A DNA stretch of 64,000 nt from Corallococcus coralloides DSM 2259 (GTDB lineage Bacteria > Myxococcota > Myxococcia > Myxococcales > Myxococcaceae): positions 3,658,001 to 3,722,000 of the forward strand of contig NC_017030.1 in the NCBI RefSeq assembly GCF_000255295.1. The letters run 5' to 3'. Of the stretch, positions 62,166-64,000 are shown in pieces. How positions within the stretch are numbered: the first letter of the stretch is position 1; the number at the start of each line of letters is the position of its first letter. Under the pieces are notes generated by a model. It was not told the DNA's origin. It was given only the letters and a program-made list of their open reading frames with translations, and did not search any database. Both the position numbers and the translations under genes were made by a program.

Positions 62166-63173
62166 ATGGGTGACGTGAAGGAGCTGCACCGTCAGTGGTG
62201 CATCGCGGATGGACACGCGGATTCGCTGATGTGGAACCGCGACCTGTGCGAACGGTCGACGGAGGGGCACGTGGACTTCCCCCGCCTGCGCGAGGCGGGG
62301 GTGAAGCTGCAGTGCTTCACGCTGGTGACCCGGGGCTTCCCGTTCATTGGCGGCTTCCCGCTGTTCGCCGCGTGGCGCAAGTGGCCCCGCGAGGCGCGCG
62401 GGAGCGAGTGGACGCGCGCGCTCTGGCAGATTGAAAAGCTGGACGCCTTCTGCGCCCGCTCCGGGGACACCGTGCGCGTCGCCACCACGGGGGCGGGGCT
62501 GGAGGACAACCTCGCGCACGGGCGGCTGTCGGCGGTGCTGGGCGTGGAGGGCGGCCACGCGATTGAAGGCCAGGTGGAGCGGCTGGCGGAGCTGCACCGG
62601 CGCGGGGTGCGCTTCATGGGGCTCACGCACCTGTCCAACAACGACCTGGGCGGTTCGTCGTTTCCCATGATGGGCAACCGGGGGCTGACGCCGCTGGGGC
62701 ACCAGGTGATGGAGGAGATGGCCCGCCTGGGGATGAGCGTGGACGTGGCGCACGCCTCCGAACAGACGCTCACGGACCTCTTCGCGCATCCCACGGTGCG
62801 CTACTTCTGTTCGCACACCGGCGTGCGCGCGGCGGGCGGTGGCTGGCGCAACCTGTCCGACGAGGCCCTGCGCACCATTGCCCAGCGCGGCGGCGTGGTG
62901 GGCATCATCCTGGCGCCGGTGTACCTGGGCGGCGACACGTGGGACGACGTGGTCCGCCACGTGGAGCACGCCGTGGACGTGATGGGGGAGGAGGGCGTGG
63001 GCGTGGGCAGCGACTACGACGGCATGGTGGCGCTGCCCCGGGGCATGCGGGATGTGACGGACCTGCCCCGACTGACGGAGGCGCTGCTCAAACGACACCC
63101 GGAGTCCTGGGTGGAACGTGTGATGGGTGGCAACTTCCGGCGTTACTTTCGGGAGACGCTCGGCGGCGGTTGA
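62166..63173 (+). CDS. Membrane dipeptidase (M19, renal dipeptidase family)
   Basis: A 335-residue metallopeptidase of family M19. The zinc ligands are recognisable: HxD in ADGHADSLMWN, Glu in GVEGGHAIEG, His in SVDVAHASEQ and His in FCSHTGVRA; VGVGSDYDGM closes the site. It would cleave dipeptides, probably in the cytoplasm because no signal peptide is seen. ATG 62166 is preferred over TTG 62130; neither has a strong ribosome-binding site. Confidence 0.9.
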   Translation: MGDVKELHRQWCIADGHADSLMWNRDLCERSTEGHVDFPRLREAGVKLQCFTLVTRGFPFIGGFPLFAAWRKWPREARGSEWTRALWQIEKLDAFCARSGDTVRVATTGAGLEDNLAHGRLSAVLGVEGGHAIEGQVERLAELHRRGVRFMGLTHLSNNDLGGSSFPMMGNRGLTPLGHQVMEEMARLGMSVDVAHASEQTLTDLFAHPTVRYFCSHTGVRAAGGGWRNLSDEALRTIAQRGGVVGIILAPVYLGGDTWDDVVRHVEHAVDVMGEEGVGVGSDYDGMVALPRGMRDVTDLPRLTEALLKRHPESWVERVMGGNFRRYFRETLGGG

Positions 63174-63209
63174 CAGCGAAAAACCTGTCGCGAAGAGTCG
63201 CCGGCACCC

Positions 63210-63590
63210 ATGAACCGTCTTCCCCTCGCGCTCTTTTCCCTCGTCGGTTTCTTCCTTCTTTCCGGCTGTGGCGGGCCGGGTTCGGGCGACTCGTGTGACG
63301 GCGGCGAATACGTGTGCCAGGACGACGCGCAGGCCCTGGAGTGCCGCAACGGCATCTGGCGCGCGCTCGCGTGCCGGGGGCCGCTGGGCTGCCGGGAGCT
63401 GGCGGACAGCGTGCGGTGCGACACGTCCCTCAACCAGGAGAATGACGGGTGCTCCATTGCCGCGGAAGGCAAGGGCGTATGCAGCCCGAACAGCGCCGCG
63501 CTCCTCACGTGCCAGCAGGGTGTGCTGGTGAAGACGGCGGATTGCTCGTCCTGCGCCGTGCAGGACAACCAGGCCGTCTGCCAGCCCTGA
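63210..63590 (+). CDS. Cysteine-rich lipoprotein with two repeat units
   Basis: A 126-residue protein with lipobox FLLSGC (Cys20). The mature part is two units of about 45 residues with the same cysteine spacing: unit 1 from CDGGEYVCQDDAQALECRNG and unit 2 from CSIAAEGKGVCSPNSAALLT, each ending in a C-x(4)-C-x(7)-C type pattern. Such Cys-rich lipoproteins are common on myxobacterial surfaces; function is unknown. The ATG at 63210 is 36 bases after the dipeptidase stop. Confidence 0.82.
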   Translation: MNRLPLALFSLVGFFLLSGCGGPGSGDSCDGGEYVCQDDAQALECRNGIWRALACRGPLGCRELADSVRCDTSLNQENDGCSIAAEGKGVCSPNSAALLTCQQGVLVKTADCSSCAVQDNQAVCQP

Positions 63591-63601
63591 CTCCGGCGAT
63601 G

Positions 63602-64000
63602 TCAGCGCTCCGGTTCCCCTCCGGAGGACGGGGGAGGGGGCGCGGGCAGGTAGCCACCCGCGGCCATGCGCTTCCCGGACCGTTCGTACATGGCCGGTGA
63701 GAGGCCCTGGACCCCGGTGCCGTCAATCCACCGGTTGTAGAAGTTGAAGAGGGCGCAGACGGAGACCGCGTCGTAGACGGCCTCGTCCGACCAGCCGGCC
63801 GCCTTCATGCGCTCCACGTCCTCGCGGCGCACGTCTCCCGGTGTGTCGTTGAGTTTGTCCACGAAGGCGAACAGCGCCTTCTCGGCCTCCGGGATGGGGG
63901 CCGTCTGCACATCGTCCAGCACCGCCTGGACGTGCTCCTTGCTGCCCAGCAATTCCGCCGCGACCGCGGCGTGAGAGCCCGTTCAAAATACGCAGGCGTT
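63602..64000 (-). CDS. AhpD/carboxymuconolactone decarboxylase-like protein with in-frame TGA, 5' end cut by window
   Basis: The minus-strand frame from the window edge reads NACVF, then TGA (63985-63983), then TGSHAAVAAELLGSKEHVQA and on to the stop at 63604-63602. A CxxC pair followed by a nearby His is the redox site of AhpD-like proteins, and the TGA stands in place of the second Cys. The rest matches the fold (IPEAEKALFAFVDKLNDTPG, MKAAGWSDEAVYDAVSVCAL, FNFYNRWIDG). Read-through would give a CxxU selenoprotein. Alternatives are a nonsense mutation or a sequencing error. TTG 63952 could give a truncated protein without the active site. At least 133 codons are inside the window. Confidence 0.72.
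63956..63971 (-). promoter_or_regulatory. Candidate bacterial SECIS hairpin
   Basis: On the minus strand CGCCGC, loop GGTC and GCGGCG form a six-pair stem. The loop starts 17 bases after the in-frame TGA and has G at its first two positions. Both agree with the bacterial SECIS rules as I know them (loop about 16-37 bases after UGA, G in the first two loop bases), and the distance is like that in E. coli fdhF. GC-rich hairpins are frequent in this genome, so the match is suggestive only. Confidence 0.5.

Follow-up and report, generated by a model that had tools for sequence, protein, structure and literature searches.

Computational evidence for an AhpD-like selenoprotein with a bacterial SECIS-type hairpin in Corallococcus coralloides DSM 2259 and its relatives

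An AhpD-like gene at the edge of a 64,000-nucleotide stretch of the Corallococcus coralloides DSM 2259 genome (hereafter the window; bases 3658001-3722000 of a 10.08-Mb single contig) very probably encodes a selenoprotein, in which selenocysteine (Sec) would be inserted at codon 90 under the direction of SelB and an mRNA hairpin, yielding a 216-residue 'peroxidase-related' enzyme of the AhpD fold whose redox chemistry is suggested by homology. AhpD-like proteins with a CxxU motif are an already known class, and by all computational evidence the gene is a genuine Sec-containing member of it, with a bacterial SECIS. An earlier note on this DNA had named that class, and the accessible parts of the literature bear it out: a 2005 study of the Sargasso Sea reported 27 such sequences of COG2128 (PMC1088965), the Global Ocean Sampling data contributed 299 sequences as AhpD-like 1, also under COG2128 (PMC2398784), and a 2026 review lists AhpD-like selenoproteins under TIGR01926 (PMC13188914). 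The Corallococcus gene shares with this family (COG2128/TIGR01926) the family model, the CxxU motif and a bacterial SECIS 3' of the TGA, as far as these are set out in the available text of PMC1088965 and PMC13188914; the family was first reported from marine metagenomes, whereas Corallococcus is a soil myxobacterium.

The window holds the 3' 133 codons of the gene (stop included), and the first 252 bases lie beyond its end. The 5' part expected there is present: the full frame begins ATG ATG AAG, has 89 codons 5' of the internal TGA and comprises 216 codons in total, ending in a further TGA. The internal TGA, codon 90, is the sole one in this frame and falls exactly at the second Cys of the CxxC motif of an AhpD/CMD-like protein, as the earlier note had seen; past it, 126 sense codons run to the next stop at 63604-63602, in agreement with the stop-free coding noted there. 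Read on the minus strand, the window end is AAC GCC TGC GTA TTT TGA ACG GGC TCT CAC GCC GCG GTC GCG GCG, and the motif context is R-E75-L-I-A-A-Y-T-S-R-R-N-A-C87-V-F-U90-T-G-S-H94. The last base of the His94 codon is also the first base of the hairpin stem. The features are as follows.

Window 63602..64000 plus 252 bases beyond the edge, that is, genome 3721602-3722252 (L009:2603-3253), minus strand: putative AhpD-like selenoprotein gene, 216 codons.
63992..63994, minus strand: TGC, Cys87, first position of CxxU; column nearly invariant in 57 homologues.
63986..63988, minus strand: Phe89 codon TTT, immediately 5' of the TGA; TTT is favoured here in homologues.
63983..63985, minus strand: in-frame TGA, putative Sec90, second position of the CxxC motif; homologous loci have TGA (113 of 117) or TGC (4).
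63971..63973, minus strand: CAC, His94 of the E-x11-C-x2-C-x3-H proton-relay pattern; invariant in 57 homologues.
63956..63971, minus strand: bacterial SECIS-type hairpin with a 6-bp stem CGCCGC/GCGGCG and the tetraloop GGUC at 63962-63965.
63602..63604, minus strand: termination codon of the AhpD-like gene, also TGA, read from the frame.

The TGA recurs in relatives. An orthologue search in 144 genomes (its own included; E <= 1e-30) recovered the gene in 36, and the best match in each of these is interrupted by a single TGA and by no other stop, with matches extending across both sides of the TGA over nearly the whole protein; one genome (G069) has a second copy, at 41% identity and without a stop. 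The codon was mapped in 117 loci (own included), 80 of them the best 80 of 167 named-genome relatives, and at the Sec position it is TGA in 113 and TGC in the remaining four. Some organisms occur twice among these loci, as a named contig and as a genome, and removal of identical contexts left 92 Sec and 4 Cys sequences. Among the best 80 of the 167 named relatives, the nearest come from species of Corallococcus and share 87-95% identity with the window protein. The Sec sequences carry the phylum labels Myxococcota, Acidobacteriota, Gemmatimonadota, Planctomycetota, Actinomycetota and Cyanobacteriota, although those outside Myxococcota are nearly all bins, whose labels may be wrong. Sec is, to judge from these sequences, the common state of the sampled clade, in a sample that was gathered with the Sec protein as query and is thus biased to close relatives. 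Conserved TGA, otherwise Cys, at the same column is what the earlier note had named as support; relatives with TGC/TGT and no hairpin conservation, which it had named as contrary evidence, were looked for and did not turn up.

When 101 distinct proteins were placed on a tree, the Cys-type L054 stood far off, L093 sat on a long branch, and the remaining Cys-type sequences, L082 and L096, paired within Acidobacteriota; bootstrap values had not settled, and the placement of L093 may be false. The Cys-type L082 and L096, both from one Bryobacteraceae bin, read T-P-F-C, with Thr at the first motif position and thus only the second redox residue. A record labelled Comamonas sp. KCTC 72670 (L087) carries the AhpD-like gene at 71% identity, also matches the hydrolase and CorA genes that neighbour it in myxobacteria (described below), and looks like a mislabelled or contaminated entry. 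The gene is also carried by a contig of Myxococcus xanthus AM003 (L069).

The hairpin that the earlier note had described as resembling a bacterial SECIS, with a GGUC loop 17 bases past the TGA, is found as CGCCGC-GGUC-GCGGCG; it is conserved, covaries and has fitting geometry. The order 3' of the TGA is 11 bases, a 6-bp stem arm, the 4-base loop, which starts 17 bases past the TGA, and the other arm. All six stem pairs are formed in 86 of the 92 distinct Sec sequences, five pairs in 5 and four in 1, whereas in a synonymous recoding null that kept the same peptides and the codon usage of these genes (200 trials) 18.4 sequences on average, and never more than 30, were fully paired. The loop is GGUC in 66 of the 92 sequences, AGUU in 19, AGGU in 3, GGGU in 2, and GGGC and CGGU in one each, so that its second base is always G; bases 1 and 4 mostly switch jointly, from G..C to A..U. 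Of 36 Myxococcaceae genes, L037 was set aside because its contig ends within it; in the other 35, codons +4 to +9, the six of the hairpin, are identical, with zero synonymous difference against a gene-wide mean pairwise value of 0.28, and they form the only zero run of more than two codons in the stretch examined.

Covariation was assessed on the 92 sequences (79 distinct rows) for seven pairs, including loop 1-4, against 500 shuffles, and kinship among the sequences remains in all of these values. The seven pairs are formed in 98.6% of cells, a value reached by 0/500 shuffles even though kinship remains, and two-sided pair changes occur in 29 cells, where, with the same reservation for kinship, 0/500 shuffles reach either the count or the covariation score. 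Weaker measures, namely the number of pairs with two-sided change and that of further pair types, were each reached by 20/500 shuffles. Slid versions of the hairpin give at most 6 two-sided cells, and a 64-sequence subset without the imperfect hairpins L081, L112 and L125 is 99.3% paired, compared with 98.6% on all 92. Loop positions 1 and 4 change from G-C to A-U in 22 of the 79 rows. In the SelB-bound SECIS loop of Moorella, the first and last loop bases pair with each other, and the G-C/A-U covariation at loop positions 1 and 4 would fit a loop pair of this kind. A search of window positions 62500-64000 against Rfam gave no match at E <= 1; to our knowledge Rfam is without a general bacterial SECIS family, and the null result therefore carries little weight. 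The constraints on bacterial SECIS elements given in the available text of PMC13188914, that is, an apical loop of 3-9 nt, an upper stem of 4-16 bp, G within the first two loop positions and 16-37 nt from UGA to loop, all agree with the 4-nt GGUC loop, the 6-bp stem and the 17-nt distance found here. Selection acts on this hairpin at the level of the RNA.

A constraint also falls on the base immediately preceding the recoded UGA, where U is preferred. Of 90 Phe codons that precede a Sec TGA, 85 are TTT, whereas in the remainder of those reading frames TTC prevails and TTT accounts for 203 of 848. Among 34 distinct Myxococcaceae sequences, the preceding codon is TTT in 31, TTC in 1 and TAT (Tyr) in 2, while elsewhere only 20 of 275 Phe codons are TTT. 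We know of no established reason for this preference.

The genome possesses the complete machinery for Sec insertion. The selA (569.1 bits), selB (328.8) and selD (388.3) genes each score above the curated cut-off, and selC is recognized both by the tRNA-Sec model (70.5 bits) and by ARAGORN, as tRNA-SeC with anticodon tca; the absence of sel genes, which the earlier note had named as grounds for rejecting its reading, is thus not what the genome displays. The tRNA-Sec model gave eight matches, five of which were passed to ARAGORN (L003, L007 and L008 were left out): L001 is the tRNA-Sec, and L002 (just above the cut-off), L004, L005 and L006 were rejected as tRNA-Ser, -Gly, -Leu and -Leu, respectively. 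Across the sampled genomes, selA was found in 122 of 144, among them all 36 that bear the gene, and the 22 genomes with no match to selA all lack the gene (Fisher p 0.002, kinship uncorrected); since selA is so common in the sampled relatives, this co-occurrence taken alone is weak evidence. In other phyla (50 genomes, from 63 loci), SelA was matched in 48, comprising 46 of 48 genomes with the Sec gene and 2 of 2 with the Cys gene, figures that come without a background rate. The two Sec-gene genomes without a SelA match are records titled MAG, of 2.3 and 3.9 Mb, and we would guess that incompleteness explains the missing gene.

Other fates of the TGA have to be weighed against Sec insertion. 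In one genome, an in-frame TGA is just what a decaying gene would look like, and the codon might have come about in a former CxxC protein by nonsense mutation, or by an error in base calling. However, 112 other loci share the TGA at this codon, which makes a base-calling error untenable; in addition, the matches continue on both sides of the TGA over nearly the whole protein, and the hairpin codons show no synonymous change in 35 genes. The chance of decay or error is therefore practically nil, and the earlier note's view that there had been no long-standing decay is borne out by the 112 other loci and the invariant hairpin codons. Termination at the TGA, with a product of 89 residues or, given a downstream restart, two separate proteins, finds some encouragement in a TTG-started 116-codon frame in the list of open reading frames (window 63602-63952). 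Such a split would nevertheless part the two redox residues, no stop interrupts the site in the Cys-type homologues L054, L082 and L093, each of which is one open frame, and the hairpin is selected at the RNA level, so that we consider termination very improbable. The TGA might also be read as another amino acid, by near-cognate readthrough with Trp or Cys. Nothing in the analysis spoke for this reading. Against it, TGA also ends both the AhpD-like gene and the upstream hydrolase gene, it interrupts only 1 of the 6 CMD matches in the genome, a tRNA-Sec with UCA anticodon is present along with selA, selB and selD, and the alternative residue at the site in homologues is Cys; readthrough of this kind is exceedingly improbable.

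With Sec insertion as the preferred reading, the product would belong to the peroxidase-related branch of the AhpD-like proteins. It matches TIGR01926 ('peroxidase-related enzyme') at 107.6 bits (cut-off 81.8) and PF02627 (CMD) at 36 bits (cut-off 23). The models NF041238 (AhpD_rel_CFYUT; 51 bits against a cut-off of 175) and NF053654 (YciW-related; 32.2 against 310) describe related (seleno)protein families, from whose cut-offs the window protein stays far below; of 57 homologues, 57 match NF041238 and 37 match NF053654 at E <= 1e-3. An AlphaFold2 model, built with 57 homologues and with Sec entered as Cys, has a mean pLDDT of 95.1 and a pTM of 0.90. In a fold search of the PDB, rows 1-16 are chains of 3c1l, 2prr, 6k40, 2pfx and 2oyo (TM by target 0.77-0.85), all named as antioxidant-defence, AhpD-core or peroxidase-related proteins; PA0269 (2ijc) follows at rank 17, and the debrominase Bmp8 at ranks 25, 26 and 31. 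The structures 6k40, 2oyo, 2pfx, 3c1l and 2prr match the window protein in sequence and fold and presumably carry CxxC, whereas the window protein has Sec as the second motif residue. Among the nearer matches is 6k40, at 28% identity; Bmp8 matches in sequence at E 1.5e-5. Across the 57 homologues no variation occurs at E75, at the Sec column or at H94, and next to none at C87. The available text of PMC3141380 gives the proton-relay residues as Glu36, Cys48, Cys51 and His55 in PA0269 and as Glu118, Cys130, Cys133 and His137 in Mycobacterium tuberculosis AhpD, and the spacing of E75, C87, U90 and H94 is that of both. The product is thus predicted to have an all-helical AhpD fold with the pattern E-x11-C-x2-U-x3-H. 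Classical AhpD of M. tuberculosis and PA0269 have the same spacing in the form E-x11-C-x2-C-x3-H (PMC3141380, in the parts available); the window protein differs from them in having Sec for the second Cys and Phe at the place of His132/Tyr50, and in not lying beside ahpC.

The neighbours were examined in the sequence upstream of the gene, where two genes were recognized.

L009:3292-4077, beyond the window, minus strand: alpha/beta hydrolase, upstream of the AhpD-like gene; best NCBIfam match PcaD-type, below the cut-off.
L009:4113-5540, beyond the window, minus strand: CorA-like gene, upstream on the same strand.

The AhpD-like gene does not lie beside ahpC; its upstream neighbours are this hydrolase and the CorA-like gene. 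Matches to both lie near the gene in 40 of the 117 loci (L022-L047, L059-L071 and L087), of which L022-L047 and L059-L071 are Corallococcus, Myxococcus, Pyxidicoccus and one Myxococcaceae bin. Because these neighbours were not found in the available flanks of other Myxococcaceae or of other phyla, we draw no functional link to them. Directly past the AhpD-like gene, at window 63210-63590 on the plus strand, a Cys-rich frame of 126 codons converges on it; this frame has a lipoprotein-like signal (LLSGC) and matched nothing in NCBIfam. Elsewhere in the genome, near 1.892 Mb (L148:1477-2610), an AhpC-type frame is followed by a Cys-type AhpD-like frame with the motif C-E-M-C-IQSH, and this pair looks like the ordinary AhpC-AhpD system of the genome. 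Since that AhpC frame adjoins a Cys-type AhpD frame of its own, the selenoprotein is not taken to be the AhpD of that AhpC.

In AhpD, it is the second Cys that reacts first, and Sec in its place would provide a stronger nucleophile. Because Sec replaces precisely this residue, the likeliest chemistry is judged to be a cycle that reduces peroxide by way of a Sec-Cys selenenyl-sulfide. At the codon-90 TGA, SelB carrying Sec-tRNA(Sec) and bound to the downstream GGUC hairpin would lead the ribosome to insert Sec and not to stop, and the product would contain the redox motif Cys87-Val-Phe-Sec90, with Glu75 and His94 at the proton-relay places of AhpD. The selenolate of Sec90 would then, most likely, attack an organic hydroperoxide or other electrophilic substrate, after which Cys87 would resolve the oxidised selenium as a selenenyl-sulfide and a cellular thiol donor would reduce it. 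Peroxide reduction through the selenol is the enzymatic role that we infer from these homologies. Peroxidase activity is not assured, because the matches include the debrominase Bmp8, and the protein may be a selenoprotein with another selenol reaction, e.g., reductive dehalogenation, which the related Bmp8 would suggest, or thiol-disulfide exchange. The presence of Bmp8 among both the sequence and the fold matches favours this, as does the separate Cys-type ahpC-ahpD pair, owing to which the protein is not needed as the partner of AhpC; on the other hand, the nearer matches such as 6k40 are 'peroxidase-related' and TIGR01926 is passed above its cut-off, although none of them shows the substrate. 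We regard a role other than that of a peroxidase as possible, but rather unlikely.

The search for further users of the Sec pathway in the genome returned little. There was no match to the formate dehydrogenase alpha model TIGR01591 at E <= 1e-100, none of 16 AhpC-TSA matches has an internal stop, the SelD match is without a stop, and of the 6 CMD matches the one with a TGA is the AhpD-like gene itself. A hairpin model built from 64 of the 92 sequences gave 13 matches in the genome, namely the selenoprotein site (71.7 bits, E 9e-13) and 12 others at E 1.45 or worse. Eleven of these 12 weak matches were examined as second hairpin sites and set aside; L155, L159 and L162 have a TGA in a long frame, and their read-through frames match no Pfam family. 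Thus, no second selenoprotein was found in the few families searched (Fdh-alpha, AhpC-TSA, CMD and SelD), in a search that was not exhaustive. In the wider group the pathway has other uses, since 86 of the 144 genomes have selA without the AhpD-like selenoprotein gene, and some of these (e.g., G033, G020 and G031) have formate dehydrogenase matches with one TGA.

The literature touches on these organisms at few points. Selenoproteins in general have a precedent in the phylum: as far as the accessible text of PMC1794560 goes, Anaeromyxobacter dehalogenans, there called anaerobic, has 11 selenoproteins, none of them AhpD-like. The available part of PMC12013277 reports a test on one acidobacterium that has three known selenoproteins. 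The term 'Myxococc' was not found in the main text of the selenoproteome papers examined (including PMC13188914, PMC2398784, PMC1088965 and PMC1794560), and searches for selenocysteine or selenoprotein together with myxobacteria, Myxococcus, Corallococcus, or Acidobacteria/Acidobacteriota returned no title or abstract treating the gene, a term search being unable to prove absence. The gene and its mRNA signal are strikingly well kept in relatives, and with them named isolates from soil, e.g., Myxococcus xanthus AM003, gain a well documented clade of selenoproteins. Automatic annotation may call the gene broken or shortened, as no NCBIfam selenoprotein model passes its cut-off for the window protein. 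The clade also offers a natural test set for the rules of bacterial SECIS elements, in which one family keeps the hairpin codons unchanged, others show covariation of stem and loop pairs, and U is markedly preferred just before the UGA.

The myxobacteria concerned, the Corallococcus lineage included, are aerobes. Tentatively, and with considerable doubt, we suggest that Corallococcus and its near relatives might keep selA, selB, selC and selD chiefly for one AhpD-fold enzyme that depends on a selenol and acts on its own substrate. The enzyme would belong to a large clade, drawn mainly from Myxococcota and Acidobacteriota, where Sec would be ancestral and nearly obligatory, lost together with the gene and not replaced by Cys. 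If true, upkeep of the Sec pathway for one enzyme in aerobes would run against the statement, in the available text of PMC13188914, that aerobic bacteria rarely retain selenoproteins. With this gene, the question of why such aerobes keep the Sec pathway becomes testable.
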